Shown: piece by piece, positions 725 to 14,410 of the stretch | How the letters are laid out: every line of letters starts with the position of its first letter | Position numbering within the stretch: position 1 is the first letter of the stretch | Origin: a virus | Virus record (IMG/VR): IMGVR_UViG_3300027985_000115 | Location: 1-20,277 of that record | Reading direction: 5' to 3' (one strand) | Length of the DNA stretch: 20,277 nucleotides | Notes under the pieces: generated by a model | What the model was told of the DNA's origin: nothing | The model's input: the letters and a program-made list of their open reading frames with translations, nothing else | Database searches by the model: none | Made by a program: the position numbers and the translations under genes

Positions 725-2150
725 CCTTGATTATTTCGCGTTAGCGCATAGCAACCTTCTTGCTTATGTCCGGTTGCAGTTTCCAAATTATCGGATTGGG
801 AAGCATCACAAGAAGATTGCGGATGCGTTGATGGCGGTAGAGCGGGGGGAAATCAAGCGGATTGTCCTCCAAGCCCCGCCTCGGCACGGAAAATCGATGC
901 TGACATCGGAGTATTTTCCTGCGTGGTATCTCGGGAGGAATCCGGACAAATACATCATCACCGCGACGTATGGGCAGGAATTGGCAGATGACTTCGGGCG
1001 CAAGGTGCGGAATCAGCTACGCAGTGGAGAGCATCGAGCATCGTTTCCAGCGTGCGTACTCGCGGAAGATTCACAGAGTGCATCACGATTCGGTACGGAG
1101 CAAGGCGGGGCGTATTTTGCTCTTGGCGTAGGAGCGCCAGCTACAGGACGCGGAGCACATTTACTCGTTGTGGATGACCCGATCAAAGGCCGCGAGGAAG
1201 CCGATAGCGAGACGATGCGGAGGCGGTTGAAAGACTGGTATGCGTCAGTGGCCTACACACGTCTGATGCCTGGCGGATCGGTCATTATCATGGCGACTCG
1301 CTGGCATGAAGATGATTTGATTGGCTGGGTTCTATCCGAACACGCGCATGAGAATTGGACGGTATTGAATCTCCCGGCGATTGATGAAGATGGCTCTGCG
1401 CTGTGGCCGGAGCATTATCCGTTAGAGGTGTTAGAGCAGATACGTCGAACGGTCGGAAGCCGTGAATGGGAGGCTCTATACATGCAGCGACCGGCCCCGG
1501 ACGCGGGGGATTATTTCAGGCGAGAGTGGTTTCGACGATACGAAACGGAGCCGAAACATTTGCGCATTTACGGGGCGAGCGATTATGCCGTCACGTCGGG
1601 GGATGGCGATTATACGGAGCATGGCGTTTTTGGTTTGGACCCGGATGGGAATCTATACATCCTCGATTGGTGGTACGGACAGACATCGTCAGACATCTGG
1701 ATTGAGACGCAGCTTGACATGATCGACAGATGGCGCCCGATGGCGTGGGTTGGCGAGTCCGGGCCAATTCGCCGGTCTATTGAACCGTTCTTGACTCGTC
1801 GCAGCCGGGAGCGGCGATCTTTGGCGCGGTTTGAGTGGTTGCCGAGCGTGCATGACAAGCCTACACGGGCGCGGACGTTTCAGGCGATGGCATCGTCAGG
1901 GATGATCTACCTACCAAAAACTGCATGGGCGGATCGTCTTCTATCGCAATTGCTGGTGTTTCCGGTTGGGGTTTCTGATGATGCGGTCGATGTGTGTTCG
2001 TTGATAGGCCGTTACCTGGACAAAATGCGTGATGCGCGGTTGCCTGATGCGCAGGAACAGAAAGCCAAAGCCGGAACATTCGCCCATCTGCTGGAAATAA
2101 CAGATAAGCCCGAGCGCGTGAGCAAGTATCGATCCGTCCGTCCAGCGTAG
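714..2150 (+). CDS. terL: Terminase large subunit (packaging ATPase and nuclease)
   Basis: This is the DNA-packaging motor protein: an N-terminal ATPase drives translocation and a C-terminal RNase H-like nuclease cuts the concatemer. No ATG lies near the 5' end of the frame. TTG 714 has GAGG six bases upstream (704-707) and gives 478 residues, so it is preferred; TTG 699 is also possible (483 residues). In the 478-residue numbering the Walker A is QAPPRHGKS (about 53-61), Walker B is LLVVDD (about 150-155) and a motif III-like ATRWHEDD lies at about 194-201. Acidic nuclease motifs occur in YGASDYAVTSGDGDYTEHG and the following LYILDWW. The length is normal for TerL. The start lies inside the small-subunit gene, suggesting coupled translation. 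The stop codon TAG is also the first three bases of a promoter-like repeat. Confidence 0.93.
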   Translation: MVNDLDYFALAHSNLLAYVRLQFPNYRIGKHHKKIADALMAVERGEIKRIVLQAPPRHGKSMLTSEYFPAWYLGRNPDKYIITATYGQELADDFGRKVRNQLRSGEHRASFPACVLAEDSQSASRFGTEQGGAYFALGVGAPATGRGAHLLVVDDPIKGREEADSETMRRRLKDWYASVAYTRLMPGGSVIIMATRWHEDDLIGWVLSEHAHENWTVLNLPAIDEDGSALWPEHYPLEVLEQIRRTVGSREWEALYMQRPAPDAGDYFRREWFRRYETEPKHLRIYGASDYAVTSGDGDYTEHGVFGLDPDGNLYILDWWYGQTSSDIWIETQLDMIDRWRPMAWVGESGPIRRSIEPFLTRRSRERRSLARFEWLPSVHDKPTRARTFQAMASSGMIYLPKTAWADRLLSQLLVFPVGVSDDAVDVCSLIGRYLDKMRDARLPDAQEQKAKAGTFAHLLEITDKPERVSKYRSVRPA

Positions 2151-2182
2151 TTTTTGGCGTGTTGTTCCACGACAGGTAAAAG
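2148..2182 (+). promoter_or_regulatory. Promoter-like element A (sigma70 type), copy 1 of a three-copy family
   Basis: The element begins with the 17-mer TAGTTTTTGGCGTGTTG, identical to the one at 11834. It supplies a -35-like TTGGCG at 2154-2159, a 17-bp spacer and a -10-like TAAAAG at 2177-2182. The -10 is the weakest of the three copies. Transcription would start near 2189, about 20 bases before the gene at 2210. The upstream TAG is the terminase stop codon. The exact repeat and the correct spacing support it; activity is inferred. Confidence 0.5.
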
Positions 2183-2209
2183 GTAGCCATCGTATCCGCG
2201 CTGGCTCTC

Positions 2210-2524
2210 ATGTCCGAACTTCAATCCATTCTGCACGGACTCTCAATCACCTGTCCGTCGCTGACCCTCGATCAGTTGCTGGCGATGGAAAACCCGACGG
2301 CACGATTCGAGGCGCACATTCCCGCAGAAACCGGCCCGGACATCTGGATTTATACCGTCGACGGCCATGTGGTTGAAGGCGACGCGATGGTCATCCGTGC
2401 GCGATTGCCGATTGAAGCGGAGACACGGGCACAAGAGGGGCTGCGCGACACCATCGCCGAGTTCAGAAAGTTCGACGTCAATACAGGATTGCAGGCGACC
2501 GTCGAAGTGCGAGGGGCGGAATAA
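2210..2524 (+). CDS. Small phage protein of unknown function between TerL and portal
   Basis: A 104-residue protein starting at ATG 2210, about 20 bases downstream of the presumed start site of promoter A. No good Shine-Dalgarno sequence precedes the ATG, so initiation might be leader-poor or start at a later codon. It has no signal peptide or membrane segment. The sequence alternates short beta-prone stretches (DIWIYTVDGHVVEGDAMVIRA) with a C-terminal helix (TRAQEGLRDTIAEFRKF), suggesting a small mixed alpha/beta domain. The TAA stop overlaps the portal ATG by one base (2522-2526), which supports it as a real, translationally coupled gene. I do not recognise the family. Confidence 0.7.
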   Translation: MSELQSILHGLSITCPSLTLDQLLAMENPTARFEAHIPAETGPDIWIYTVDGHVVEGDAMVIRARLPIEAETRAQEGLRDTIAEFRKFDVNTGLQATVEVRGAE

Positions 2525-4905
2525 TGGAAGAAGTCGAAACCAACGACCGCGACAAGGCGCTGGCAAAACGTTGGGGAAAACGCCTCGACCGTGCCCTTGA
2601 ACAGCAGCGCAAGGACGAGACGGAAAAGAACTACAAGCGCCAGCGCAAGTATGTGAGGGGTGAAGTCGGCGGCGACGAATCGCCTGGTCTGGTCCGCACC
2701 AACATCATTCACAGTAACTTCGCGGCGATCCTGCCGCAAATCTACGCCAAAAACCCGGAAATCGCCGTCACGCCGTCAGAATCGGCGGATGTGCGTCAAT
2801 ATGCGTGGGTCGGCGGCTTCTGCAAGACCTTATCGGCTGTTCTTGAACGAAAATTCGTCAAGGAAGGCCGGCTGAAGAAGCGCGCCAAGGCGGCTATCCG
2901 TTCGGCGATGACGACCGGCGCAGGTTGGGCGAAAGTCTCGTGGCAGAAGGACATCCGCACCGATCCGATGATTGAAAGCCGTATTGCTGATGCGCAGGAC
3001 AATCTTCAGCGCGTCCAGCATCTTCTGGACGAGATCGAGGAAGGCGACGACAAGCGCGGCGAAATCGAAGCAAATCAGACTGAAGTAGAGAACCAGATTC
3101 GTGCGTTGCAGCAGCAGGCGGAACTCAGCGTTGTGACCGGCATTGTGATCGATCGCGTGCTGACTGAAGACATTTTCATCCTCGATGACACGCTATACGA
3201 CATCGATACCTACGACAACGCGCAGGCCATCGCGCACCGCGTCTGGATGACGTGCAGTGATTACGAGCAGCAGTTCGGGCGGGAAGCGCCAAAGACGGCG
3301 AACAAGTACGGAGCGGACAAGAAGGAAAAGGGCGGCAGCCAATCGACCGACGACGAGCAAGTCGAACTGGTCGCTGTCTTTGAAGTGTGGGACAGGATCA
3401 GCAACACGGTCTATACACTGTGCGCAGGGGCGGATGAATGGGCGCGTGATCCTTACACGCCGCAGACGCTCGGTAAACGCTTCTATCCGTTCTTTTTTAT
3501 TGCGTTCAATCCGGTGGATGGTTCGATTGAGCCTCTATCGGACGTCGATTTGCTGATCGAACTTCAGGACGAGTACAACACGACGCGCACGAACTTTGCC
3601 GAGCATCGCCGGGAAAACCTCCCTGTCCGGGTGTATCGCAAAGGCGGCGCGCTGTCGGATAACGACGTCAAGGCATTAGCGAACCGTTCGGCGAACGATT
3701 GGGTCGGGATCGAAGGCGATCCGAACGCCCCGATTCAGAACGACATCGCTATTCTGCAAAATCCGCCTGTTGATCCAGCGACCTACGATGTATCACCGAT
3801 TCTCCGCGATGCCGAGATGGTTCTTGGCGCGGGTGATGCGTCGAAAGGCGTTATCAACAAGGCGAAGACAGCGACCGAAGCAGAGATCATGGCGCAAGGG
3901 TTGCAGTCGCGTGTTGCCGAGCGCCAGGATGTGGTGGAAGACTGGATCGGCGAGATGGCGAACTACGCCGCTGAACTCTGTTTACAGGAAATGAGCTTGC
4001 CGGAAGTTCAGCGCATCGCCGGGGAAGAGTCGGTATGGCCGCAGATGCGCAAGGAAGACATTTTCAGCCTCGTCCAGATCGATATTCGTGCCGGTTCCGC
4101 TGGAAAACCGAACAAAGCCAAGGAGCGCGAGCAGTGGGGGCAAATGCTTCCGCAGATTCAGCAGGCCGTGATGCAGATTGCGCAACTTCGCCAGTCTGGC
4201 AACAACGACATGGCCGAAACGGTGACGAAACTGCTGGAAGAGACGCTGCGCCGGTTCGATGAGCGGATCGACATCGAATCATTCCTCCCACAGCAGCAGG
4301 ACAAACAGGCAGGACAACAGATTCCGCCTGAGTTGCAGCAGCAAATTCAGCAGATGCAGGGCCAATTCCAGCAATTGCAGCAGGAAAACGCGCAATTGAA
4401 GGAGATTGCGGACGGAAAGGCGCAAGACTTGGCGTTTAACCGGGAAAAACTCGCGTTCGAGCAGTCGAAGGCCGGTGAGGAAATCCGCTTGAAGGGCGAG
4501 GAATCCGCAAGGAGTGAGGCGGCGACGATCCGTGCGGCGGAAATCAGGGCAGCGGCACAGGTGGAAGCGGCACGGCAATCCGAGACGGTGAAGGCTGAAT
4601 TGGAGCGCGAGCGCATTGCTTCTCAGGAGCGCGTCGAGATGTTCAAGGCTGTTACAGCCATGCGGCAGAAAGAAAACGCCGCCATTGCTCAGGAAACCGC
4701 CTCGGCAGATGCGTCTGTCACGGACGAAAGCCAGCAGCAGGTCGTCGCGATGATGCAGCAGATGCAGCAGGCCATGCAGGCGATGGCGGAACACTTCTCG
4801 GCGAGTTTCGCTGCGATGCAGGAGAGCATGAACGCCTCCAAGCGGGTTATCCGTGACGAAAACGGAGACATAACCGGAGTTGAAATCGTGAGGACGTTGC
4901 AATGA
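2524..4905 (+). CDS. Portal protein with extended coiled-coil C-terminus
   Basis: At 793 residues this is in the size range of P22-type portals (about 725). The portal forms the dodecameric ring at one capsid vertex through which DNA enters and leaves, and to which the tail attaches. The N-terminus contains features seen in this portal family: NIIHSNFAAILPQIYAKNPE (about 60-80) and a basic helix around RLKKRAKAAIRSAMTTGAGW. The central region has VLTEDIFILDDTLYDIDTYD and SDVDLLIELQDEYNTTRTNF. From about residue 590 to 770 it is very Gln/Glu/Ala-rich and predicted coiled coil, which fits a long helical barrel of the kind seen in P22. The last residues, VIRDENGDITGVEIVRT, resemble a motif often found at phage portal C-termini. 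Its position after TerL and before lysis genes supports the call. Confidence 0.88.
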   Translation: MEEVETNDRDKALAKRWGKRLDRALEQQRKDETEKNYKRQRKYVRGEVGGDESPGLVRTNIIHSNFAAILPQIYAKNPEIAVTPSESADVRQYAWVGGFCKTLSAVLERKFVKEGRLKKRAKAAIRSAMTTGAGWAKVSWQKDIRTDPMIESRIADAQDNLQRVQHLLDEIEEGDDKRGEIEANQTEVENQIRALQQQAELSVVTGIVIDRVLTEDIFILDDTLYDIDTYDNAQAIAHRVWMTCSDYEQQFGREAPKTANKYGADKKEKGGSQSTDDEQVELVAVFEVWDRISNTVYTLCAGADEWARDPYTPQTLGKRFYPFFFIAFNPVDGSIEPLSDVDLLIELQDEYNTTRTNFAEHRRENLPVRVYRKGGALSDNDVKALANRSANDWVGIEGDPNAPIQNDIAILQNPPVDPATYDVSPILRDAEMVLGAGDASKGVINKAKTATEAEIMAQGLQSRVAERQDVVEDWIGEMANYAAELCLQEMSLPEVQRIAGEESVWPQMRKEDIFSLVQIDIRAGSAGKPNKAKEREQWGQMLPQIQQAVMQIAQLRQSGNNDMAETVTKLLEETLRRFDERIDIESFLPQQQDKQAGQQIPPELQQQIQQMQGQFQQLQQENAQLKEIADGKAQDLAFNREKLAFEQSKAGEEIRLKGEESARSEAATIRAAEIRAAAQVEAARQSETVKAELERERIASQERVEMFKAVTAMRQKENAAIAQETASADASVTDESQQQVVAMMQQMQQAMQAMAEHFSASFAAMQESMNASKRVIRDENGDITGVEIVRTLQ

Positions 4906-5123
4906 CCGACACACAGCTATTGACTCTCTCAGCGCAACTTGTCGCGGTGCTTTTCGGTACGCTGATTGCTGTCCTCGCCTGGATGGGAAACAAACTCTAC
5001 AACAAACTCGAAAGCATCAGCCAGTTCTTTGACGAGCTGCGGCGTGATATTCACCTGATCGACGGGCGTGTTACCCGGTTGGAAGAGCGGTGCCGGTACG
5101 AGCATGACGCGAGGCCGCAATGA
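4902..5123 (+). CDS. Small single-pass membrane protein of the lysis cassette (holin/antiholin candidate)
   Basis: A 73-residue protein overlapping the portal stop by ATGA, with GAGG eight bases before the start. One hydrophobic segment (about residues 5-28, LLTLSAQLVAVLFGTLIAVLAW) is followed by a charged amphipathic helix with coiled-coil character (NKLESISQFFDELRRD, then GRVTRLEERCRYEH). This topology, one membrane helix plus a C-terminal coiled coil, is seen in several small lysis-associated proteins (pinholins, antiholins, XhlA-like). It lies immediately before the endolysin (ATGA overlap), so a role in timing or membrane permeabilisation is likely, but the precise role is not known. A second holin candidate follows the endolysin. 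Confidence 0.72.
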   Translation: MTDTQLLTLSAQLVAVLFGTLIAVLAWMGNKLYNKLESISQFFDELRRDIHLIDGRVTRLEERCRYEHDARPQ

Positions 5124-5644
5124 GCTTTGACGACGCGCTCGCCTTTGTCCTCCGCTGGGAGGGCGGCTTTGTTGATGACCCGGCTGATCGCGGCGGCGCG
5201 ACCAACAAGGGCATCACACAGGCCGTCTATGACGAATGGCGCGAGCGGAAGCACTACGACAAGCGCTCCGTGCGTGACATCGAAGACGGCGAGGTCAAGC
5301 AGATCTACCTCGAACAATACTGGAAGCCTGCCCGCTGCCAGGCGCTGGATTCCCCGATGTCGCTAATCCTGTTTGATTCGGCGGTCAATCACGGCGTGGG
5401 ACGGGCGGTGAAGCTGCTGCAAGAGGTGCTGAACGTCGCCGTGGATGGGCACTTCGGCCCCGCGACGATGGCCGCATATGACTTCCTTGAAGAGTGTCAC
5501 GGCACCGGGCACATTGCAACGCAGTACATCAAGGCGCGGGAGGCGTTTTACTTCCGCATCGTCGAAAAAGATCCGACACAAGGGAAATTCCTGCGCGGCT
5601 GGCTGAACCGGCTGGATTGGTTGCGGAAGGAGGCGAAACTGTGA
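5120..5644 (+). CDS. Endolysin, glycosyl hydrolase family 108 type (N-acetylmuramidase)
   Basis: A 174-residue peptidoglycan hydrolase. The N-terminal half matches the GH108 lysozyme pattern: an RWEGG motif whose Glu-14 is the expected catalytic acid, then DDPADRGGATNKGIT (about 19-33). The C-terminal part resembles the peptidoglycan-binding domain usually paired with GH108 (VNHGVGRAVKLLQEVL and VDGHFGPATMAA). It should cleave the glycan strand between MurNAc and GlcNAc. No signal peptide is visible, so it needs a holin to cross the membrane. It starts at ATG 5120 within an ATGA overlap, preceded by GAGG five bases upstream. Its stop overlaps the next gene as GTGA. Confidence 0.93.
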   Translation: MSFDDALAFVLRWEGGFVDDPADRGGATNKGITQAVYDEWRERKHYDKRSVRDIEDGEVKQIYLEQYWKPARCQALDSPMSLILFDSAVNHGVGRAVKLLQEVLNVAVDGHFGPATMAAYDFLEECHGTGHIATQYIKAREAFYFRIVEKDPTQGKFLRGWLNRLDWLRKEAKL

Positions 5645-5883
5645 CCTGGCTTCGCGAGGCGATCAACGACGGCAAGACAGGGCAAGCCTCGTCGAAGCGG
5701 ATCATCTCGCTCGTCGGCGCACTCGCGCTGGCCTTCGCTACAGTCATTCTCGCCGTCGCCGCCGTGTTCGGTCAGGACGTCGCTAACGCGCTGTGGGCTG
5801 CGAGTGGCCCGCTCGCCGCACTCGGTGGAACGAATTATGTCGGCGGGAAACTCGCGGAGAAACGCAATGAGCCTGCTGCTTAG
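5641..5883 (+). CDS. Holin-like membrane protein
   Basis: An 80-residue protein starting at GTG 5641, overlapping the endolysin stop (GTGA), with a strong GGAGG Shine-Dalgarno about eight bases upstream. It has a hydrophilic, net basic N-terminus, one clear membrane segment (about residues 21-43, IISLVGALALAFATVILAVA) and a second, weaker hydrophobic stretch (about 48-68, ANALWAASGPLAALGG) before a charged tail KLAEKRNEPA. Small two-segment proteins next to an endolysin are typical holins, which form membrane lesions that release the enzyme at a set time. It overlaps the start of the Rz gene by 17 bases. The frame extends upstream to 5494, but that part overlaps the endolysin and lacks support. 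Confidence 0.82.
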   Translation: MTWLREAINDGKTGQASSKRIISLVGALALAFATVILAVAAVFGQDVANALWAASGPLAALGGTNYVGGKLAEKRNEPAA

Positions 5884-6352
5884 TCTGCTCAAGAGCTACT
5901 GGCCGCAGGTCGCCGCGTTTATCGGCGCTGTCGCACTCGGCTTCATGGCCGCGTGGCAGTTGCAGGGGCTGCGGCTCGACGCGCTCGATCTGAAGTTCAG
6001 CAAATATGTTGCACAGACCGAAAAGAACGAGAGTGAAGCAAAGGCGGCAGCACTGGATAAGGAACGATTCTGGTTAGCGGAGAAAGAGAATGCACTCATC
6101 AATGCGCGACACCGAGAGAAAGAGCTTGAATCGGCTCTTGCCGCTTCTCAGTCTGCTGGTGTTCGGCTGCGGGACTCTGTCGCCACCTTGCGTACCCAGC
6201 TCGCCGACGCTCCCGGCTATGCCTGCCTTGACGCAGTCACTTCCCTCGGAGAGCTACTTGAAGCGTGTCGAGGACGATACGAAAGCCTGGGATACAAAGC
6301 TCAAGGCCATGTCATCGACATTGAAAAAATAATGAGGGTGTGGCCGAAATGA
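5867..6352 (+). CDS. Rz: Rz-like inner-membrane spanin (i-spanin)
   Basis: A 161-residue protein with start ATG 5867, GGAG seven bases upstream, overlapping the end of the holin gene by 17 bases. An N-terminal membrane anchor spans about residues 14-32 (QVAAFIGAVALGFMAAWQL), followed by a long charged coiled-coil region (about 40-105; KFSKYVAQTEKNESEAKAAA, then LDKERFWLAEKENAL) expected in the periplasm. This matches Rz/i-spanins, which bind an outer-membrane lipoprotein partner and fuse the two membranes in the last step of lysis of Gram-negative hosts. The partner Rz1 is encoded inside this gene in the +1 frame. Two cysteines in the C-terminal half could crosslink subunits (inference). Confidence 0.86.
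   Translation: MSLLLSLLKSYWPQVAAFIGAVALGFMAAWQLQGLRLDALDLKFSKYVAQTEKNESEAKAAALDKERFWLAEKENALINARHREKELESALAASQSAGVRLRDSVATLRTQLADAPGYACLDAVTSLGELLEACRGRYESLGYKAQGHVIDIEKIMRVWPK
6090..6332 (+). CDS. Rz1: Rz1-like outer-membrane lipoprotein spanin (o-spanin), nested in Rz
   Basis: An 80-residue protein read in a different frame, entirely within the Rz gene. ATG 6090 has GGAG about seven bases upstream; ATG 6102 is an alternative. The N-terminus is a classic lipoprotein signal: basic residues (RDTERKSLNR), a hydrophobic core (LLPLLSLLV) and a lipobox VFGC with the lipidated cysteine at residue 27. The mature part is short (about 54 residues) and proline-rich (SPPCVPSSPTLPAMPA), then a charged helical tail. 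All these are hallmarks of Rz1-family o-spanins, and nesting inside Rz is the lambda arrangement. It should sit in the outer membrane and pair with Rz, implying a Gram-negative host. Confidence 0.85.
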   Translation: MHSSMRDTERKSLNRLLPLLSLLVFGCGTLSPPCVPSSPTLPAMPALTQSLPSESYLKRVEDDTKAWDTKLKAMSSTLKK

Positions 6353-6546
6353 CGTGGGCAGAACTCGCACGGATCGCTGCTGACCGGGTAAGCATTGGTC
6401 TCGGCGCGCTTGAGGTCTGTCTCGACCTTCGCGGGCTACACCTCGACCGTAACAAAGTTCCGTTGATCCTGCCGCCAGACGGCGAACGCATTAGTGCAGA
6501 CGGAACAGTCGGCTATCTGTCAGGGCGACTTACGGAGGGGCCGTGA
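6349..6546 (+). CDS. Small phage protein of unknown function (65 aa)
   Basis: Starts at ATG 6349, overlapping the Rz stop by ATGA; a GTG at 6340 in the same frame would add three residues. A GAGGGTG stretch lies about 11 bases upstream. The N-terminus is a helix (WAELARIAADRVSIGLGALE) and the rest is a mix of short strands and loops (NKVPLILPPDGERISADG). No signal peptide, membrane segment or recognised motif is visible. It is tightly coupled to both neighbours (ATGA upstream, GTGA downstream), so it is probably a genuine gene of the late operon. I do not recognise it. Confidence 0.62.
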   Translation: MTWAELARIAADRVSIGLGALEVCLDLRGLHLDRNKVPLILPPDGERISADGTVGYLSGRLTEGP

Positions 6547-6779
6547 GCGAGAAACTTGAACCGCGCTACATCCGCATCCTGAAGAACCTCGACGCGCTCG
6601 GCTGCACGCTGATTGCGAAACGCGCCAAGGCCGGCGAGTACATCAGCACGTACGTCTGGCGAGTGCGCAAGACGCGGGCGATTCTGTTCATCGATTTCCT
6701 GTTCGGCGAGATCGGCCACTGCGCGGCCAGCTTCGACGGACAGAAGGACGATCTTGAACTGGTGAGGGACGAAGTATGA
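6543..6779 (+). CDS. Small phage protein of unknown function (78 aa)
   Basis: Starts at GTG 6543 within a GTGA overlap, with a strong GGAGGGG Shine-Dalgarno just upstream. The protein is compact and mixed (RYIRILKNLDALGCTLIAKR, then TRAILFIDFLFGEIGHC). The central hydrophobic stretch looks more like a buried beta-strand/helix core than a membrane segment because charged residues flank and interrupt it. No family is recognised. Its stop overlaps the next start by ATGA. Position between spanins and tailspike gives no firm functional clue. Confidence 0.65.
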   Translation: MSEKLEPRYIRILKNLDALGCTLIAKRAKAGEYISTYVWRVRKTRAILFIDFLFGEIGHCAASFDGQKDDLELVRDEV

Positions 6780-7171
6780 GCACCTGGCAAGTCACGAAGC
6801 GCCTGACCGGCGAAGTCGTCTATGCCTACACGGCAGACGAGCCGGTTGAATGGCCGGGGATGGAGTTCGCAACGCACAATCACTTGCTGCAAGTGCCTGA
6901 AGCCGTCCAGGAGACGACGGACGCGGACTGGCGCATCTACGTCGGGTCGTTCTTCGACCGATTCGGGGAGCAGAAAATCAGCATCCTCTCGTCCGAGGAC
7001 GCAGTGGTGCAGGCGCTGATCAAGGACGCCTCGGTGCGGCAGTATATCGGACTACGTGAGCGGCGCGACGAACTGGCGCAGATGATCGGCGTCCTCGTCG
7101 CCAAGGGCTTCACACTCGACGCCTCGGCGATCCTCGACACCGAACCGACTGACGCGGAGCGGTTCGTTTAA
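6776..7171 (+). CDS. Phage protein of unknown function preceding the tailspike-like gene
   Basis: A 131-residue protein starting at ATG 6776 (ATGA overlap), GAGG eight bases upstream. It begins with WQVTKRLTGEVVYAYTADEP, a beta-rich part, then WRIYVGSFFDRFGEQKISIL, and ends with a helical region (LRERRDELAQMIGVLVAKGF). No catalytic motif, signal peptide or membrane segment is seen. Its TAA stop overlaps the ATG of the next gene by one base. The immediate coupling to the beta-helix tail gene suggests a tail assembly or adaptor role, but that is inference from position only. Confidence 0.7.
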   Translation: MSTWQVTKRLTGEVVYAYTADEPVEWPGMEFATHNHLLQVPEAVQETTDADWRIYVGSFFDRFGEQKISILSSEDAVVQALIKDASVRQYIGLRERRDELAQMIGVLVAKGFTLDASAILDTEPTDAERFV

Positions 7172-8691
7172 TGGCGACTGTTCGCTCCCTCGTCTGCTGG
7201 GGCGGTCGCACCGGGAAATCGGTGACGGCCTCGAACTCCGGCGGATTGATCTTCACGTCGACCAATCACGGCTTGCGCGACGGAACGGCGCTGATGTTCT
7301 CCGGAACAACACTGCCGGGGAATGTCTCGTCGATTGTGCCGTATTACACGCAGTCGCTGTCAGCCAACACGTTCGCCATCTACACCGAGCCGGAACTGAC
7401 CAACCGTGTAGCGTGGTCGTCGGCGGGATCGGGCGTGTACGCGAAGTCGAAGAAGATGCTCGACTACTTCGCGCAGTATCCGGGACGGTGGGGCGACGCG
7501 GATGCAGAGCGGTGCTATGACTCGATCGTGTCGTGGCACAGCGCGCGCTCTGGTGCAGGAGTTTCTTCACTCGACTCGGAGGTCTGCGAACTTGGGCAGG
7601 CGTTTGTCGACATTCGCTCCGACGCGACGATTCCGACAATCAGCATCGCGGCGGCGACTGTTGAGATAACTAGCAGGATCAACGGAGTTCGAACCGAGGC
7701 GTTCCACTACGGACAGTTCGGCGCGGGGTATGAGTTGTACCGCAGCGCGAGCGGCTATGACTTGCTCAAGCTATCGACCCCGCGCACGACCGTTGATGGC
7801 TGGACCGTGAGTTCGTTCGCAGGTTACTACGGCAACAACTGTGTCAACCACGACGGGTGGGGCTGTGTAACGCAGAACATGATAATCATCGGAGGCGGCG
7901 GAACATCGACTATCGGCACCGCTTCAATTGGCATTTGGTTAAATAGAGCCTTATCCAAGGCGATTAATAATCTTGTCGTCGGGTGTTTACACGGAATTCG
8001 GCCGTGGAATTATCTGTCTGGAATTTACGTCGCAAATAATACGGTAACAAAATGTGGGACAGGAATGTCGCCAGCTGCATCAACAAATATGCAGGGAGAG
8101 TATTACAACAATATAAGCATTGGAAACACAACTAATTGGGGTGCGCTGACAATTAATAGCCTGACCAGTTGCGGCGGGAACGCTGGGCTTTCTGGTGAAG
8201 CGTGGGTTAGTGGAGCGAACCCGCAGATCACCATCGCAACGACGGATTTCGTCAATTTCCCGACCGACATGCGCCCAGCACTCTCGACCTCCCCGCAAGT
8301 CGATTCCGGCGTCGAATACTACGGAGCTCTCGGTTACGACATCGCCGACGCCGAGCGCCCGAACTACAACAACGGCGGCGCAGAGGCGTTCGATGTCGGC
8401 TGCTACGAGTTCGACCACGGCTACGGGGATCATCCGATCACCGCGTCTCTCACGCTGACGGGCCTCGTATCCGGCACGGATGTCGTCGTTCGCGCCGCAG
8501 GAACCAGCACGATCCTCGATTCCGTCGATTCGACCTCGGGCAACTGGACCTATTCGTACGGATCGGCGCACAACGTCGACATCGATGTCATCAAGCCGGG
8601 GATGGTCATCGTCACCTTCCGCAACCTCGCCCTGACCGCTGCCGGGGCAACCCTGCCCGTCTCGCAGCAGTTCGACAGAAACTATTCGTAA
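7171..8691 (+). CDS. Beta-helix tailspike-like virion protein
   Basis: A 506-residue protein. The N-terminal part has a phrase often seen in phage tail proteins (GTALMFSGTTLPGNVSSIVP, then YYTQSLSANTFAIYTEP). The middle (about 150-400) is rich in short repeated strands with Asn/Gly/Thr turns, e.g. ASIGIWLNRALSKAINNLVV and GIYVANNTVTKCGTG, typical of a right-handed parallel beta-helix. It then ends that domain with ADAERPNYNNGG...DVGCYEF, a motif resembling the end of beta-helix proteins with a 'choice-of-anchor Q' type pattern. This suggests a receptor-binding or polysaccharide-degrading spike; no catalytic residues can be assigned. Residues about 250-330 are encoded by an AT-rich patch (see the separate entry). 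The last ~37 residues resemble the C-terminus of the next protein. Confidence 0.75.
   Translation: MATVRSLVCWGGRTGKSVTASNSGGLIFTSTNHGLRDGTALMFSGTTLPGNVSSIVPYYTQSLSANTFAIYTEPELTNRVAWSSAGSGVYAKSKKMLDYFAQYPGRWGDADAERCYDSIVSWHSARSGAGVSSLDSEVCELGQAFVDIRSDATIPTISIAAATVEITSRINGVRTEAFHYGQFGAGYELYRSASGYDLLKLSTPRTTVDGWTVSSFAGYYGNNCVNHDGWGCVTQNMIIIGGGGTSTIGTASIGIWLNRALSKAINNLVVGCLHGIRPWNYLSGIYVANNTVTKCGTGMSPAASTNMQGEYYNNISIGNTTNWGALTINSLTSCGGNAGLSGEAWVSGANPQITIATTDFVNFPTDMRPALSTSPQVDSGVEYYGALGYDIADAERPNYNNGGAEAFDVGCYEFDHGYGDHPITASLTLTGLVSGTDVVVRAAGTSTILDSVDSTSGNWTYSYGSAHNVDIDVIKPGMVIVTFRNLALTAAGATLPVSQQFDRNYS
7921..8160. other. AT-rich patch inside the tailspike gene
   Basis: Counting by hand gives 99 G+C in these 240 bases (about 41%). 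A 60-base sample just downstream (8281-8340) has 36 G+C (60%), like most of the window. The patch encodes about residues 251-330, the centre of the predicted beta-helix, and uses AT-ending codons (aat, ata, tta) that are scarce in neighbouring genes. The frame is intact. This looks like a segment exchanged from a source with different base composition. Confidence 0.7.
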
Positions 8692-8700
8692 GGAGCCATC

Positions 8701-10083
8701 ATGGCGAAGATCACCACACGCGCAGAACTCAACGTCGGGACGGAACTGACCATCGATGAGCCGAACCGTACCTTCACGCTGAATGTCGCCGGAAACCTCG
8801 TGGCGAAAGACGGCGTGACGTTGCAGGCGCTCTATTCGAAGTTCTCCGACCTGTGGGCGACAGCAACGTATCAGGACAGCCCGTTCCCGATGAACGCGAT
8901 TGACGCGCTTTCCGGCCAGTATTATTTCGGCGTGGATGCCGGGGGGAATTACAACGGCTGGAAACCGGCGAACGACGCGACGCGGAACATGCTCCGTGAT
9001 GGCGGCTGGCGCGAGTACTCCGCTGCCGGTGTGCTGAACCGCGAATACTCCGGTTTCGTCGGTCTCGGCACGATCAATGATGGGGCGCAGCCCTACTACC
9101 ATCTAGCTGCGACGGACGCCCCGACGAACTTCGTCTTCGATGATCAGTTCAACCTCGGAGTGCAGGTCTACGGCGACGCATCAAACGGAAACTTCGACAA
9201 GCGCACCTACGCGAAAGCCTATGTTCGCGAGTACGGGAAGAAATTCAAGGACTCGGTGTTGTCCGACACAGGAAAGACGGCCACCGGGGCGTTCCTCGTC
9301 AATTTCCTGATCTCGAACGAGGACGATCTCAAGATCACGAACACGCTCGGCACGACGGATCAAGCGACCGGCGATGCGCTGATGAGCAGCGCCCCTTATT
9401 CCGGGATCACGGTCAGCTACTACACGGCGAACCAGTCGCGCACGATCAACGGGGCGGCTTGCAACTTCAAGATCATCGTCGAAGGCAACGGGGCAACGCT
9501 GGAGCAGATTTACGCCAAGTGCCAGTACCTGCTTCGTCAGGCGACCGATATCAACACCAGCGGAACGGCTGGAAGCAAGATAGGAAAGATTCAAGCTGCG
9601 CTGATGTCCTTCGTCGGCGATACGCTGGTCACGTCCAACTCGGTCTATATCGACAACATCCAGGCGACCGACAGCAACCGTATCGAGTTCTACGATGATA
9701 GCGGCACGAAGCGCACGAATCCGTATGTTGCAGCGGGCACGATGTACTTCAACGCGCCACTGGTCGGGGCCGGATCGTCCTACCGGCTGATGTTCGCAGC
9801 CCCTCCAGGAGCAGGTGACGACTACGGCGAGGCGGGCGCGGTCACGGTCAATGACGCTTCTGGCGATCCAATCACGGGAACGATCAGTTCGGCGAGTTTT
9901 ACCTTCGACTACGACTACGACGGCAACACGCAGGCGGGATTCACCGCGGGGACGGATCGGCCTGTAGTGCTGATCGGTATTCGGCCAGGCTATGGGAAGT
10001 TCGCTGTTGCCACTGGCACGCTGACCCGCAGCAAGAGCATCAGCCTGTCTCTCGTCGCCGAAGCTGATCGGGCGTATGTCTGA
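8701..10083 (+). CDS. Phage virion/tail-associated protein of unknown function (460 aa)
   Basis: Starts at ATG 8701 with AAGGAG upstream. It is soluble, rich in Gly/Asn/Thr/Tyr, with no signal peptide or membrane segment, as expected for a fibre or other virion part. Two regions look like diverged copies of one strand-helix motif: residues about 25-52 (GVTLQALYSKFSDLW) and about 256-280 (GATLEQIYAKCQYLL). A related phrase is near the N-terminus of the next protein. The last ~40 residues (PVVLIGIRPGYGKFAVATG ... LVAEADRAYV) align with the C-terminus of the preceding tailspike-like protein. It is probably a tail fibre, spike or connector component; no specific family is claimed. Its TGA overlaps the next ATG (TGATG). 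Confidence 0.72.
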   Translation: MAKITTRAELNVGTELTIDEPNRTFTLNVAGNLVAKDGVTLQALYSKFSDLWATATYQDSPFPMNAIDALSGQYYFGVDAGGNYNGWKPANDATRNMLRDGGWREYSAAGVLNREYSGFVGLGTINDGAQPYYHLAATDAPTNFVFDDQFNLGVQVYGDASNGNFDKRTYAKAYVREYGKKFKDSVLSDTGKTATGAFLVNFLISNEDDLKITNTLGTTDQATGDALMSSAPYSGITVSYYTANQSRTINGAACNFKIIVEGNGATLEQIYAKCQYLLRQATDINTSGTAGSKIGKIQAALMSFVGDTLVTSNSVYIDNIQATDSNRIEFYDDSGTKRTNPYVAAGTMYFNAPLVGAGSSYRLMFAAPPGAGDDYGEAGAVTVNDASGDPITGTISSASFTFDYDYDGNTQAGFTAGTDRPVVLIGIRPGYGKFAVATGTLTRSKSISLSLVAEADRAYV

Positions 10084-10586
10084 TGGCGATTACGTTCGAT
10101 CCTGCTGCCAAGCGGATCATCCTTGACAGCGCCAGCGTAACCGCCGAGGAGATTTTCTCCCGGTGGGAAGACTGGGCGCTGCTCTCTGACAACGCCAAGT
10201 ATGGCGCGGTGATGACGCACGTCGGCGGGGATGACCTCGGCGGCGGGCTGTTCATCCCGAACTACATCTTCTTGCAAAACGGCTGGCGGGTGCGCCCGAT
10301 GGAGGCGAGCCACAACCTGAACATCACTGGCAATCTGTTTGTGGCAGGCGGCGGGGTGCCAGTGGTCAATACGCTGGGGAATTACAACGTCGCCGTGCAA
10401 TACACAGTGCCGGTTCAGGCGCAGGGGATTGCGACTGAGGGGGGTACAGGACCCACCGCTGAGTCCATCGCCGCCGCCGTCCTCGCCGCGTTGCAAGGGG
10501 CGACGATTCCGGTGAATGTGACGCAAGTAAACAGCGTGACGCTGCAAGGCTCCGGCATCCCGTCTGACCCGATGAGGCCGGCGTGA
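10083..10586 (+). CDS. Conserved phage tail/virion accessory protein (167 aa)
   Basis: Starts at ATG 10083 in a TGATG overlap; no strong Shine-Dalgarno, so it probably depends on coupling. The sequence follows a pattern I recognise from many tailed-phage proteins near tail or fibre genes: a strand and helix ending in EEIFSRWEDWALLSDNAKYG, then VGGDDLGGGLFIPNYIFLQN and GWRVRPMEASHNLNITGNLF with a final VPVVNTLGNYNV. These proteins are usually annotated as hypothetical or tail proteins. The C-terminal third (PTAESIAAAVLAAL, then QVNSVTLQGSG) is a low-complexity extension. A structural role next to spikes is likely; the exact function is unknown. Confidence 0.72.
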   Translation: MAITFDPAAKRIILDSASVTAEEIFSRWEDWALLSDNAKYGAVMTHVGGDDLGGGLFIPNYIFLQNGWRVRPMEASHNLNITGNLFVAGGGVPVVNTLGNYNVAVQYTVPVQAQGIATEGGTGPTAESIAAAVLAALQGATIPVNVTQVNSVTLQGSGIPSDPMRPA

Positions 10587-10587
10587 G

Positions 10588-10845
10588 ATGTGGCAATCAG
10601 GCTTTTGGGCCGATGGCTTATGGTCCGATGGATTTTGGGACGGTCAGGCCGTCGTTCCTGCTTCGCTCGGCGGATGGGGGCCAATCCGAAAGCGCAAAAA
10701 AGAAGACGATGAGATTGACGAGGCGTTATCCGTTGATGTCGTTACGCGCATACAGGGCGAGTTACTGGCCGGCTCGTTCATGCAGGAGAGTATCAGGACG
10801 GCCAAACGGCGGCGTGATGAGACGCTGCTTCTTTTGATGATGTAA
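10588..10845 (+). CDS. Small tryptophan-repeat phage protein (85 aa)
   Basis: Starts at ATG 10588, one base after the preceding stop. The N-terminus is a striking repeat of xxWx(D/S)G units: WQSGFWADGLWSDGFWDG, with four tryptophans in the first 18 residues. Similar Trp/Gly N-termini occur in short phage proteins found near tail genes. The centre is highly charged (IRKRKKEDDEIDEAL) and the C-terminus is helical (RIQGELLAGSFMQES, then RTAKRRRDETLLLLMM). It lies between tail-accessory genes and the scaffold. Function is unknown; a small virion or tail-tip component is a guess from context. Confidence 0.65.
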   Translation: MWQSGFWADGLWSDGFWDGQAVVPASLGGWGPIRKRKKEDDEIDEALSVDVVTRIQGELLAGSFMQESIRTAKRRRDETLLLLMM

Positions 10846-10855
10846 AGGGGAAATC

Positions 10856-11836
10856 ATGGACGAGTTGGAAAACACGGAAATCACTCAGCCGGACGTTGAA
10901 CAGAGCGAACAGGTTGAAACGTCGACGGAACCGTCATCGATGCTCGAAGCGATTGAGCAGGGCATGGCGTCCGAGCCGGAAGAATCCAGTATGGATGAGG
11001 ACGGCCAGCCGCGTGACGAGCAGGGCCGGTTCGCGACCAAGCCGGAAGAAGCCAAGCCGGCACTGCCTGAGCCGACTACTGAACCGGAAGACGACCTGGC
11101 GATGCCGGAAGGACTCGGCAAGAAGGCGCAGGAACGGTTCAAGAAACTTACTGGCTACCTGCACGAGTCGAATGCGAGAGTCAAACAACTGGAAGCCGAC
11201 ACGCAGCAATTCCGCGAGGTGCTGAAGGCGACAGGCGGATCGCCGCAGCAGATCGGGCAGGCGCTGAACTACGTTGGGATGATGACGCGGGGCGATCTTG
11301 AAGGGGCGTTGCGTCTCATCGAACAGGAGCGCAAAACGATTTCCCTGTTGATGGGAAAGCCATTGCAGGGGGCTGATACGCTGGCCGATTTCCCAGACCT
11401 GCGTCAACGGGTCGATGCCTACCAGATGGACGAGCAGGCGGCGATTGAAATTGCCCGTGCCAGGACGATGCAGGCCGAGCAGCAGCGCGCCGTGCAGACC
11501 ATGCAGCAGGGGCAGCAGCGCCAGCAGGTGGCGCAACAGGAAAAACAGCAGGCCATCCAGCGGATTGACTTGCTGAACGCCGAGTGGTCGAAGCGTGATC
11601 CGGATTTCGCGTACAAGGAAGACATTATCCTGAAGCAGATTCCGGAGATTGCGCGCAATTTCCCACCGCAGCAGTGGCCGCAACAGGTGGCGATGCTCTA
11701 TCAGACGCTATCGGCGATGCCCGCTCCGGTGAAGCCTTCGGCAATTCCAGCCCCGTTGCGCGCCTCCGGTCAGTCGGGTGGTACGAAAGCGCCGTCATCG
11801 ATGCTCGACGCGATTACGGGCGGATTAGGGTATTAG
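10856..11836 (+). CDS. Capsid scaffolding protein
   Basis: A 326-residue protein starting at ATG 10856 behind AAAGGGGAAA. Composition is typical of a phage scaffold: an acidic, disordered N-terminus (residues 1-80, rich in Glu/Pro/Ser), a DEQGRFATK phrase, then long Gln-rich helices (about 90-240, e.g. RARTMQAEQQRAVQTMQQGQ). It ends in a Pro/Ala-rich linker and a short hydrophobic tail. It sits directly before the coat gene, the canonical scaffold position. A PSSMLxAI motif occurs twice, near the N-terminus (about 26-33) and at the C-terminus (about 313-320), encoded by a near-perfect 24-bp direct repeat. It would guide coat assembly and then leave or be degraded; no protease domain is visible. 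Confidence 0.82.
   Translation: MDELENTEITQPDVEQSEQVETSTEPSSMLEAIEQGMASEPEESSMDEDGQPRDEQGRFATKPEEAKPALPEPTTEPEDDLAMPEGLGKKAQERFKKLTGYLHESNARVKQLEADTQQFREVLKATGGSPQQIGQALNYVGMMTRGDLEGALRLIEQERKTISLLMGKPLQGADTLADFPDLRQRVDAYQMDEQAAIEIARARTMQAEQQRAVQTMQQGQQRQQVAQQEKQQAIQRIDLLNAEWSKRDPDFAYKEDIILKQIPEIARNFPPQQWPQQVAMLYQTLSAMPAPVKPSAIPAPLRASGQSGGTKAPSSMLDAITGGLGY
10931..10954 (+). repeat. Direct repeat, copy 1 (N-terminal end of scaffold gene)
   Basis: These 24 bases, starting CCGTCATCGATGCTCGA, match 11792-11815 with a single mismatch. Both copies are read in the same frame as PSSML(E/D)AI. The spacing between copies is about 0.86 kb. Confidence 0.85.
11792..11815 (+). repeat. Direct repeat, copy 2 (C-terminal end of scaffold gene)
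   Basis: This is the partner of the repeat at 10931-10954, differing at one base (C instead of A, turning Glu into Asp). It encodes PSSMLDAI just before the scaffold stop codon. Confidence 0.85.
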
Positions 11837-11868
11837 TTTTTGGCGTGTTGAAAACTTGGCGCTATAAC
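11834..11868 (+). promoter_or_regulatory. Promoter B (sigma70 type) for the capsid operon, copy 2 of the family
   Basis: It begins with the exact 17-mer TAGTTTTTGGCGTGTTG found at 2148, whose TAG is again the stop codon of the preceding gene. The -35 is TTGGCG (11840-11845), the spacer is exactly 17 bp and the -10 is TATAAC (11863-11868). Transcription should start near 11875, leaving a leader of about 100 bases before the coat ATG. A promoter at this point would raise coat protein output above that of the scaffold. The leader contains a short hairpin with a GGGTTCGTC motif shared with promoter C. Confidence 0.68.
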
Positions 11869-11977
11869 AGGCTCAAGCCTTTATGGCGCTGACCGGCAGT
11901 ACAGGGTTCGTCTCCTGTGTCTTTGGCGAGTTGTACCGCGTCGCCTGCGGATCGTTCAATTTCACAGGAGATTCATC

Positions 11978-12994
11978 ATGCCCTTCTCGGCTCTCAAAAA
12001 CAACCCGATTGACCAGGTTGCCGTTGAACGTCCTCTCATGAAGGCGTTGATGGGGAAAAAGAAATCGTTCCCCGGTGGCAAGGAATACGTGCAAGAGCAA
12101 CTGCGCTACCGCTATCAGTCGAACTTCCAGTGGTTCAACGGTTCGTCCGTTGTGACTTACAACAAGCGCGTCACGATTGAACAGGCAAAATTCCCGTGGC
12201 GTTCGGCACACGATGGATTCTCGCTGGATGAAGATCGTTTGGCGCAGAACGGCATCGTGATTCACGACTCGCAGACGGGCGGAAACGCTTCGCAAGCCGA
12301 GCGCGTGCAACTGACGAATCTATTGCAGGAACAGACCGAAGCTTTGCGCCTTGGTTTCGAGGAAAAGTTCTCGATGTACCTGCACCTCGACGGGTCCAGC
12401 TCGACCGATGCGATAACCGGCCTCGATGCGCTGGTGGCGATCAACCCGACAACCGGCACGCTTGGCGGTATTGACCGTTCGAACGTCTGGTGGCGGAACA
12501 GCTACACCACCGGCATGACCGCTCCGACCACGGCGGCACAGGCCACGACCTTCCTCGGGCAGATGGAAACTGCTTGGCGCGCCTGCGTGAAGAACGGTGG
12601 GCGTCCGGACCTGATCCTGGCCGGGGCTGCCTTCATCGACGCCTATATCGCCGCGCTGACGCTGAACGGCCAGCAGGTAACGTATGCCGGGGGTAAGCCG
12701 CGTGACATCGATGGTGGCGTGAATCAGATCTTCTACAAGGGGATCGAGATTCAATGGTGTCCGGAGTTCGACGACAATTTCGGCGGCTTTGTCAGCCCGA
12801 CACCGACGTGGACGAAACGCTGCTACTTCCTGAACACCAAGGCGCTGACCCTGCGCCCGATGGACGGTCAGGACATGGTAAGCCGCAAGCCGCCGCGTGT
12901 GTACGACCGCTATACGTACTATTGGGCGCTGACCTGGCGCGGCACATTGACCACCAATCGGGCGAACGCTCACGCCGTTCTGGCCGTATCGTAA
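11978..12994 (+). CDS. Major capsid (coat) protein
   Basis: A 338-residue protein starting at ATG 11978 with AGGAG about nine bases upstream, and with its own promoter and a ~100-base leader. It directly follows the scaffold gene. Sequence features fit an HK97-fold coat protein of the podovirus type: an N-terminal segment with SALKNNPIDQVAVERPLM, a long helix (NLLQEQTEALRLGFEEKFSM) resembling the spine helix, and a C-terminal beta-rich part ending VYDRYTYYWALTWRGTLTTN. It has no maturation-protease signal. The family assignment is from context and composition. It is followed 12 bases later by a probable decoration protein. Confidence 0.84.
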   Translation: MPFSALKNNPIDQVAVERPLMKALMGKKKSFPGGKEYVQEQLRYRYQSNFQWFNGSSVVTYNKRVTIEQAKFPWRSAHDGFSLDEDRLAQNGIVIHDSQTGGNASQAERVQLTNLLQEQTEALRLGFEEKFSMYLHLDGSSSTDAITGLDALVAINPTTGTLGGIDRSNVWWRNSYTTGMTAPTTAAQATTFLGQMETAWRACVKNGGRPDLILAGAAFIDAYIAALTLNGQQVTYAGGKPRDIDGGVNQIFYKGIEIQWCPEFDDNFGGFVSPTPTWTKRCYFLNTKALTLRPMDGQDMVSRKPPRVYDRYTYYWALTWRGTLTTNRANAHAVLAVS

Positions 12995-13006
12995 GGAGGA
13001 AAAACC

Positions 13007-13354
13007 ATGTCTCTTGCAACTGTTTCCCTTGGATCGGCGCTGACTTCGGCCACGTCGAACGCCAGCGTCAAGCCGGAAGATTCCGACGCCAAGTTCGCCC
13101 GTGGTTCGTCCATTCTCGCCATCATCCAGCCGACCAATGGCGCGTTTGTCGGGACGGCAAAGATTCAGGGCACGAACACCGACCTCGACGCGACGGCGGA
13201 TGCCTCCTGTACCTGGGTCGATTTAATGACCTTCACCGCACCGGCCTCGAACAGCGGCTGTAAGGCGGCGATCATCCCGGCGTATCGCCGGATGCGGCTG
13301 ACCGTTTCGGCCTTCACCTCGGGATCGGTCGAAGGCTTGATTGTCGGCGGTTAA
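13007..13354 (+). CDS. Probable capsid decoration / head-stabilising protein
   Basis: A 115-residue protein starting at ATG 13007 behind a near-perfect TAAGGAGG Shine-Dalgarno, so high expression is likely. It is small, Ser/Thr/Ala-rich, without long helices and with repeated beta-prone stretches (SSILAIIQPTNGAFVG, AAIIPAYRRMRLTVSAFTSG), consistent with a compact beta domain. Position immediately after the coat gene and before a strong terminator fits a coat-stoichiometric decoration protein. No family signature is recognised, and it could instead be another minor head protein. Confidence 0.68.
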   Translation: MSLATVSLGSALTSATSNASVKPEDSDAKFARGSSILAIIQPTNGAFVGTAKIQGTNTDLDATADASCTWVDLMTFTAPASNSGCKAAIIPAYRRMRLTVSAFTSGSVEGLIVGG

Positions 13355-13362
13355 TGCGGGCT

Positions 13363-13390
13363 TCCCCCGGCAGGTGTCGGGGGATTTTTT
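13363..13390 (+). terminator. Intrinsic (rho-independent) terminator after the capsid genes
   Basis: A 7-bp stem TCCCCCG / CGGGGGA (13363-13369 with 13378-13384) closes an 8-base loop and is followed at once by six T residues (13385-13390). It begins nine bases after the stop of the decoration gene. It would end or reduce the transcript from promoter B and so limit expression of the adaptor and tail genes downstream. Confidence 0.9.
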
Positions 13391-13405
13391 CATCATGGAG
13401 ACTGT

Positions 13406-13717
13406 ATGCTTGCAAAGCGCGTAACCGCCCTCGTCAGGCGGGACATGGCCGAAGCCATTCCGGCGACGGTATTCGAACACGAAGTTGATATTCTTCGTGA
13501 CATCCACGGGGCCGGGAATATCGAAGTTCTCGACGCGGAATTCCCCGATGAAGAAATCGACGCCGAAGATGAATTCGGGCGTCTAAAGATGTACTACGGA
13601 CAGAACGACCAGGGCGCGTTTTACGTTGAACGCATCCACGGCGTTTCCTCGCGTGCGCTGGAAGCCTTCGACGTTACGCCGAAGCGCGGACGCCGCAAGG
13701 CCGAAGACGAGGGCTAA
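13406..13717 (+). CDS. Small acidic phage protein of unknown function after the capsid genes
   Basis: A 103-residue protein starting at ATG 13406 with GGAG five bases upstream, 15 bases after the terminator. The N-terminus is basic (MLAKRVTALVRRDMAEAIPA), the centre is very acidic (LDAEFPDEEIDAEDEFGRLK) and the C-terminus again basic (TPKRGRRKAEDEG). Acidic proteins of about this size are common between coat and adaptor genes in related phages but lack a firm function. Candidate roles include a minor head or connector protein. No domain is recognised. Confidence 0.72.
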   Translation: MLAKRVTALVRRDMAEAIPATVFEHEVDILRDIHGAGNIEVLDAEFPDEEIDAEDEFGRLKMYYGQNDQGAFYVERIHGVSSRALEAFDVTPKRGRRKAEDEG

Positions 13718-13720
13718 TCG

Positions 13721-14293
13721 ATGATCTACCGGACGCTCGGCGAGTTGCGCTCCGAACTGGCAACGCGCCTTGGGTTCGGTGCGATGGGATCGGCAGGCAT
13801 CAATAGCGGCCTGCTGAACTCGTTTCTACAGAACGCACAGGATCAGCTTTTCGCTGATTTTCAGTGGCGGCACCTAATCACTTACGACGAGAAGACGACC
13901 GGCGCGGGACAGTCGCTCTACGATTGGGCAGAAGACTGCGATCCGTCGAATGTGACTGAAATTGCGGTGAATGACGGCGTGACATGGACGCCGATGACCG
14001 AAGGCATTGACTGGATGATGCGCTCGGACGACACACAGTTCATGCCGCAACGCTATGAACGATTCGCGCAGATGGAAGTATGGCCGGTGCCCGATACGCA
14101 ATACACCATCCGTCGCTATTACGTGCGTTCTCCGGATCGTTTCACGCAGGACAACGACCGGGCTTCGATTGACGATGGTTTGATCCTGCTTCATGCCATC
14201 ACCAACGCGAAACAGCATTACCAGCAGAAGGACGGCGCGAACTACGCCACGCAATTGAACGCGATGCTGATCCGTTTGAAGGGCCGCAGCTAG
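13721..14293 (+). CDS. Head-tail adaptor (connector) protein
   Basis: A 190-residue protein starting at ATG 13721, GAGG seven bases upstream, four bases after the preceding gene. The sequence resembles the phage adaptor family (P22 gp4-type role): an N-terminal helix (LGELRSELATRLGF), a motif QNAQDQLFADFQWRHL, a beta-rich middle with LYDWAEDCDPSNVTEI, VWPVPDTQYTIRRYYVRSP, and a C-terminal helix (ILLHAITNAKQHYQQKDG, then ATQLNAML). Such proteins bind below the portal ring and prepare it for tail attachment. Position before the gp10-like gene supports this. Confidence 0.82.
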   Translation: MIYRTLGELRSELATRLGFGAMGSAGINSGLLNSFLQNAQDQLFADFQWRHLITYDEKTTGAGQSLYDWAEDCDPSNVTEIAVNDGVTWTPMTEGIDWMMRSDDTQFMPQRYERFAQMEVWPVPDTQYTIRRYYVRSPDRFTQDNDRASIDDGLILLHAITNAKQHYQQKDGANYATQLNAMLIRLKGRS

Positions 14294-14327
14294 TGCGCCG
14301 CCTGTACCGCCACGACCGAGAATGGTC

Positions 14328-14362
14328 TAGATTTTTGCGTGTTGAACGCCATGCGCTATAAG
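14328..14362 (+). promoter_or_regulatory. Promoter C (sigma70 type) before the gp10-like gene, copy 3 of the family
   Basis: TAGATTTTTGCGTGTTG matches the 17-mer of copies A and B at 15 of 17 positions. The -35 is TTTGCG (14334-14339), the spacer is 17 bp and the -10 is TATAAG (14357-14362), inside a GCGCTATAA block identical to promoter B. Start is expected near 14369. A weak hairpin, GACC-gagaat-GGTC, followed by TAGATTTTT lies just upstream and might act as a minor terminator. The element would restore transcription after the terminator at 13363. Confidence 0.62.
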
Positions 14363-14410
14363 GGTTGAAACTGACTGTTCTAGCGGGTTCGTCGCCGTGG
14401 TGGATTGGCT

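Follow-up and report, generated by a model that had tools for sequence, protein, structure and literature searches.

Putative late promoters and a candidate winged-HTH activator in a lineage of uncultured phages

Phage-encoded activators with matched sites are known in kind. The late activator Ogr of phage P2 binds zinc and acts at a dyad around position -55, and CII of phage lambda, which controls lysogeny genes, reads a direct repeat of TTGC. At the RNA level, translational operators of coat genes or other phage mRNAs involve leader hairpins able to hide the Shine-Dalgarno (SD) sequence. In the middle promoters of phage T4, the MotA box is located 12 +/- 1 bp from the -10 element (PMC2988021). 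Here we analyse computationally a viral record of 20,277 bases from IMG/VR (the whole stretch is called the window below) together with relatives, among them 48 viral loci retrieved by a coat-protein search. Our analysis suggests, with a probability of about 0.7, that three similar sequences of the window are phage-specific late promoters read by a small winged helix-turn-helix (HTH) protein of the same phage. Text searches of the literature found no description of this activator-box pair. The reading offers a likely switch for the expression of virion genes in this lineage of uncultured phages, whose coat also has relatives in prophages of Burkholderiales and other bacteria.

Promoter-like copies in the window

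The 17-mer TAGTTTTTGGCGTGTTG, which a preliminary description had reported twice, is present exactly at 2148-2164 and 11834-11850, and its third copy, with two changes (TAGATTTTTGCGTGTTG), at 14328-14344. With up to three mismatches allowed, these are the only three places on both strands of the window, the expectation from shuffles being 0.04 +/- 0.20 matches. The -35-like and -10-like hexamers and the exact 17-bp spacing given in the same description also hold at all three copies, designated A, B and C. The features of the window considered here are the following.

157-420, + strand: gene of an 87-aa winged-HTH protein, the candidate late activator, just upstream of the terminase genes
2148-2182, + strand: putative promoter A; -35-like TTGGCG (2154-2159), 17-bp spacer, -10-like TAAAAG (2177-2182)
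2210-2524, + strand: small conserved gene (104 aa), presumably driven by A and followed by the portal gene; start and sequence kept in relatives
2524-4905, + strand: portal protein gene, with PHROG portal matches
11834-11868, + strand: putative promoter B; TTGGCG (11840-11845), 17-bp spacer, TATAAC (11863-11868)
11899-11920, + strand: predicted coat-leader hairpin with a GTTCGTCT loop; complementarity to the coat SD region in TCTCCTGTG (11911-11919)
11936-11950, + strand: second predicted coat-leader hairpin, CCGC-GTCGCCT-GCGG, from the sequence and the hairpin enrichment in leaders
11963-11971, + strand: coat SD region CACAGGAGA, exact complement of 11911-11919, from the sequence and the swap test
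11978-12994, + strand: major coat protein gene (phrog_9953 major head protein, E 1.6e-47)
13363-13390, + strand: strong intrinsic terminator after the coat and decoration genes; 9-bp stem with seven G-C pairs, T run
14328-14362, + strand: putative promoter C; TTTGCG (14334-14339), 17-bp spacer, TATAAG (14357-14362)
14383-14398, + strand: predicted leader hairpin after promoter C, GCGG-GTTCGTCG-CCGT
14411-15798, + strand: gp10-like gene; relatives read MPSVIAFDRFDAGLDLRKGASVSDANRL in one frame

As had been noted, the TAG of the motif serves as the stop codon of the upstream frame at A (terminase, 699-2150) and at B (scaffold-like frame, 10856-11836), and the copies precede the small gene and portal (A), the coat gene (B) and the gp10-like gene (C). 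Predicted start points lie near 2189 (A), 11875 (B) and 14369 (C). The suggested division of the late region into separately driven units is plausible, with the terminator at 13363-13390 standing after the coat and decoration genes. Comparison with relatives places the start of the gp10-like gene at the ATG at 14411, not at 14365. Relative to relatives, the same gene has a frame break near 14548, at CCCCGGGG, which is either an assembly error or a real frameshift.

A generic sigma-70 scan of the window flagged none of A, B and C, and none of them has a T at position 6 of the -10; therefore, the case for promoters rests on comparison and not on the sigma-70 consensus. The -35 hexamers match TTGACA at four of six positions at A and B and at three of six at C, and the distance to the -10, 17 bp in the window and 17 or 18 bp in relatives, is within the sigma-70 range of 16-18 bp. 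A weaker fourth half-copy, TCTTTGGCGAGTTG, is found within the coat leader (11920-11933), with no -10 at the right distance. Megablast and blastn searches of the window and the coat against phage records gave no matches, and tblastn of the coat yielded only coats of approximately 25% identity.

The two-part element and its candidate reader in relatives

The preliminary description proposed looking for the motif at equivalent positions in relatives, and it is there: sites A and B were found in nine relatives, one of which, L011, has a divergent box, and fragments L013, L093, L100, L102, L110 and L113 each showed box plus TATAA at one of these two sites. In the closest relatives the element reads TTT[AG][TG]C[AG][TC][GC]TT[GC]A - N11/12 - TATAA, that is, a 13-bp box over the -35 position (TTTRKCRYSTTSA in relatives) separated by 11-12 bp from a TATAAV -10. 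Site A is located just after the terminase, which belongs to different families in different genomes, and before the small gene and portal; site B is located before the coat gene. At the equivalent places the motif occurs on the + strand only (15 vs 0; reversed control 2), and an exact-consensus search gave two sites per record in six records, with none on the other strand and none in the control. The -35/-10 spacer is 18 bp at both sites of L005 and L008, 18 bp at A and 17 bp at B in L011, and 17 bp elsewhere.

Copy C appears to be particular to this phage, as it was not found in relatives where this could be checked; in L008 and L012 there is no intergenic gap at that place. It looks like a lineage-specific copy of the B cassette, comprising promoter and leader hairpin. 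In L006, an inserted gene is preceded by a third copy particular to that genome and weaker (score 18.4).

Box copies differ at 0.4 of 13 positions within a genome and at 3.2 between genomes (p 5e-6). Such matching within genomes, combined with drift between them, implies a phage-encoded reader. Of the two explanations offered in the preliminary description, recent duplication of a promoter cassette fits copy C, which does resemble a copied B cassette, and an additional phage-encoded factor is the better supported, the boxes being pair-matched in each genome and tracking the HTH recognition helix (see below).

The same data could also be explained by host sigma-70 promoters, duplicated and kept alike in each genome by recombination, with no phage factor involved. 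The -35 sequences TTGGCG, TTGGCA, TTGTCA and TTATCA do match TTGACA at four to five of six positions, with 17-18 bp spacing, and L038 possesses TTGACG-17-TATAAC with no box. However, conservation extends past the -35 (CGTTGA and more), the matching within genomes is confined to the box, spacer and flanks being different, the final T of the -10 is absent from all 25 sites tabulated (0/25), and the boxes follow the HTH recognition helix, which makes this explanation unlikely. Sigma-54, a T7-type polymerase and a phage sigma factor were considered as well and are not supported. A search of 25 records with PF04545, which would miss very divergent sigma factors, gave only four sub-threshold partial HTH hits, and control genomes matched; PF00940, in 25 records, gave no match, nor did it in the control genomes.

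The candidate reader is the 87-aa protein. In the nine box genomes of the first comparison (L011 and fragment L013 aside), a small HTH gene invariably lies directly upstream of the terminase; the gene was also present in L091/L110, L092, L093, L100 and L102, and no HTH-bearing record extending as far as the small gene lacks a box in front of it. No HTH match was obtained in 16 element-less records (the whole of L038 and 15 others), two positive controls being found, and none in the L011 fragment with its divergent matched boxes. As judged from these records, the HTH protein seems to accompany the element wherever both regions are readable, one divergent fragment excepted. It alone among the late-region genes shows this presence pattern, shadow frames aside, and the genes common to four well-covered genomes include no other regulator-like candidate. 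The structure model, of moderate confidence (mean pLDDT 65), is a winged HTH with a recognition helix at residues 33-45 that includes Lys38; the Pfam winged-HTH matches of the protein were all below cut-off. HTH matches in 401 genomes of the Roseateles family were weak, lay in longer frames and were judged unrelated. On the portal tree, most forks of which are weakly supported, L038 groups with box-bearing phages and has therefore probably lost both HTH and box. Between its terminase and small gene (721-1101), it encodes a different HTH-like protein that by eye resembles sigma region 4 (RLREIGDRLGVSAARARGMVIEAERM), perhaps a replacement regulator.

In ten non-redundant genomes, the distance between recognition helices correlates with the distance between boxes (Mantel r 0.41, p 0.007), and the rest of the HTH protein gives r 0.06 (p 0.32). 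Lys38 is found with TTTGGC boxes in four of four genomes, and other residues with TC boxes in six of six. This Lys38-GG rule had been written before L091 and L093 were fetched, and both obeyed it. As label shuffles of the ten genomes produced some perfect residue-base pair in 22% of cases, weight is placed on the helix-only correlation, these two forward predictions and a sister pair, L007 and L017 (support 99/97, portal tree). Differences between the HTH proteins of the two sisters fall within the recognition helix and directly behind it (AAPNTVQAVLRRAADRGEI vs ATPDCVRKVLRNASDKGVI), with two more in the wing; the boxes share TTGATC and are distinguished by the preceding 5' half alone, ATCATC vs GGCACG, which makes L007 and L017 a natural specificity-switch pair for studying joint evolution of activator and site. 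Members of the Lys38 group lie apart on the portal tree, where at least two changes are forced.

These observations also bear on the possibility that the promoters are activator-dependent but read by another protein, the association with the HTH gene being due to hitch-hiking. The sample is small, L011 has matched divergent boxes with no HTH detected, and L038, devoid of both box and HTH, has a different HTH protein in the same region; nevertheless, correlation of the box with the recognition helix only, the switch in the sister pair and the two correct forward predictions render another reader still less probable than plain host promoters. It is very improbable that the box is a module-boundary or insertion sequence for recombination and not a promoter. 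The terminase genes that the box directly follows do come from different families, and L010 (9365-9800) and L008 (9376-9796) share a 435-bp insert ahead of the coat gene, 94% identical between these two phages of differing flanks and with the respective genome's box variant at either end, but the fixed TATAA partner at 17/18 bp, the constant ATG distance, the single orientation and the matched HTH helix would be left unexplained. The insert itself resembles a small RNA gene in having a promoter-like site (TATAAT) and a stem that runs into a terminator, and it has no match in phages, plasmids or Rfam. Finally, chance likeness of three unrelated AT-rich intergenic stretches, for which nothing speaks beyond the loose match of copy C, is negligible, having already been refuted by the recurrence of the motif in relatives on top of its low expected number.

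Proposed late switch, transcript starts and coat leaders

According to the phage-specific reading, the HTH protein would be produced by the time late expression begins, would bind the box where sigma region 4 normally contacts DNA, and would help the host RNA polymerase to start downstream of the -10. Expression of the small gene and portal operon would thereby be turned on from A and that of the coat gene from B, with the gp10-like gene (C) as a further target confined to this phage. Several facts stand against it: the lack of a final T in the -10s, unexplained under plain sigma-70; the L011 fragment; the number of non-redundant genomes, only ten; and the position of the window ATG away from the start point of A.

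At site A, an ATG follows the -10 by 6-7 nt in 10 of the 12 genomes tabulated, which would put the 5' end of transcript A on the start codon or no more than one base from it. The gene is thus probably leaderless at most site-A equivalents and is a clear candidate for a leaderless phage mRNA. L038, lacking the element, has a GGAGG Shine-Dalgarno before its small gene. The window is an exception, its ATG being 27 nt after the -10 and with no SD. In the two exceptions (window, 2189-2212; L011, 2588-2611), the place held by ATG in relatives, 6 nt after the -10, is taken by an in-frame isoleucine codon, ATC and ATT, respectively, which is the first codon of a similar seven-codon extension (IVSALAL-M and IASWIAA-M); conceivably, a leaderless mRNA is translated from AUC/AUU in both.

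Transcripts B and C would begin with hairpins having UUCGYC-type loops, one such hairpin being found in the window after each of these promoters. In 40 coat leaders there are 62 hairpins of this type, as compared to 6.5 +/- 2.8 in shuffles, and their density is nine times that elsewhere. Reading the GGTTCG hairpins as tRNA was rejected, as ARAGORN found none and the A conserved in T-loops is missing from the loop. No leader matched at gathering score when the window and a set of leaders were scanned with Rfam, and the coat leader is a candidate new RNA element. DNA patterns for the hairpin arrays, run against IMG/VR, mainly returned members of the same clade or fortuitous matches in coding sequence. 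In L078 (4822-4866) and L086 (1601-1645), a non-coat gene (MPTYRVKPEPDYN...) is preceded by the same tandem leader hairpins, with a sigma-70-like TTGACT-16-TATTCT upstream. In L015, L018, L019, L022 and L037, a frame that by eye is HNH-endonuclease-like is inserted between the leader hairpins and the coat gene, and L038 has a group I intron inside the major coat gene (10130-10491; Rfam RF00028, 84 bits).

The Shine-Dalgarno could be an alternative pairing partner of the coat-leader hairpin: two complements are available in the window to UCUCCUGUG (11911-11919), the arm of its own hairpin and the SD region at 11963-11971. A swap test among leaders was used, the MAFFT leader alignment having misplaced the SD. 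The mean duplex energy of the hairpin region with its own SD was -19.2 kcal/mol, as compared to -15.1 kcal/mol with swapped SDs (p 2e-4 or less); in controls with reversed or shuffled sequence, the differences were approximately 0.1 to 1.1. The best cases of SD pairing are distant relatives (L030, L039, L045, L046 and L048). In the close relatives L006, L008, L009 and L012 it was not seen, and SD pairing is therefore a lead and not a result for all members. A switch of coat translation by hairpin/SD pairing is possible, as a separate and weaker claim. The fuller picture, in which activator-promoter pairs co-diverge by the Lys38/GG rule even between sister phages and the coat leader is bistable, with the hairpin opposed to a covarying SD-hiding helix, is tentative and has slightly less than an even chance.

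Comparison with known systems

The T4 MotA/AsiA system of sigma appropriation and the element described here both have a box at the -35, which in our case ends 11-12 bp before the -10, and share a small phage-encoded DNA-binding reader, in our case a candidate one. By analogy, we infer an activator that would act at the -35 with the host polymerase. Unlike in T4 middle promoters, the genes under control would be virion genes, the reader would be a winged HTH protein of approximately 70-90 aa, and the final T of the -10, needed in T4, is lacking; no MotA or AsiA family was found among the Pfam and PHROG matches of the proteins scanned. Ogr-type activation in P2 is alike in that the phage encodes a small late activator whose few cognate sites lie in front of structural operons; however, the putative activator described here is a winged HTH protein and its box lies over the -35. 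Promoters dependent on lambda CII similarly have an activator site overlapping the -35 of a promoter for the host polymerase, whereas the present element precedes virion genes and has one 13-bp box. Finally, in comparison with known translational operators, the coat leader would have tandem UUCGYC-type-loop hairpins competing with a long-range helix.
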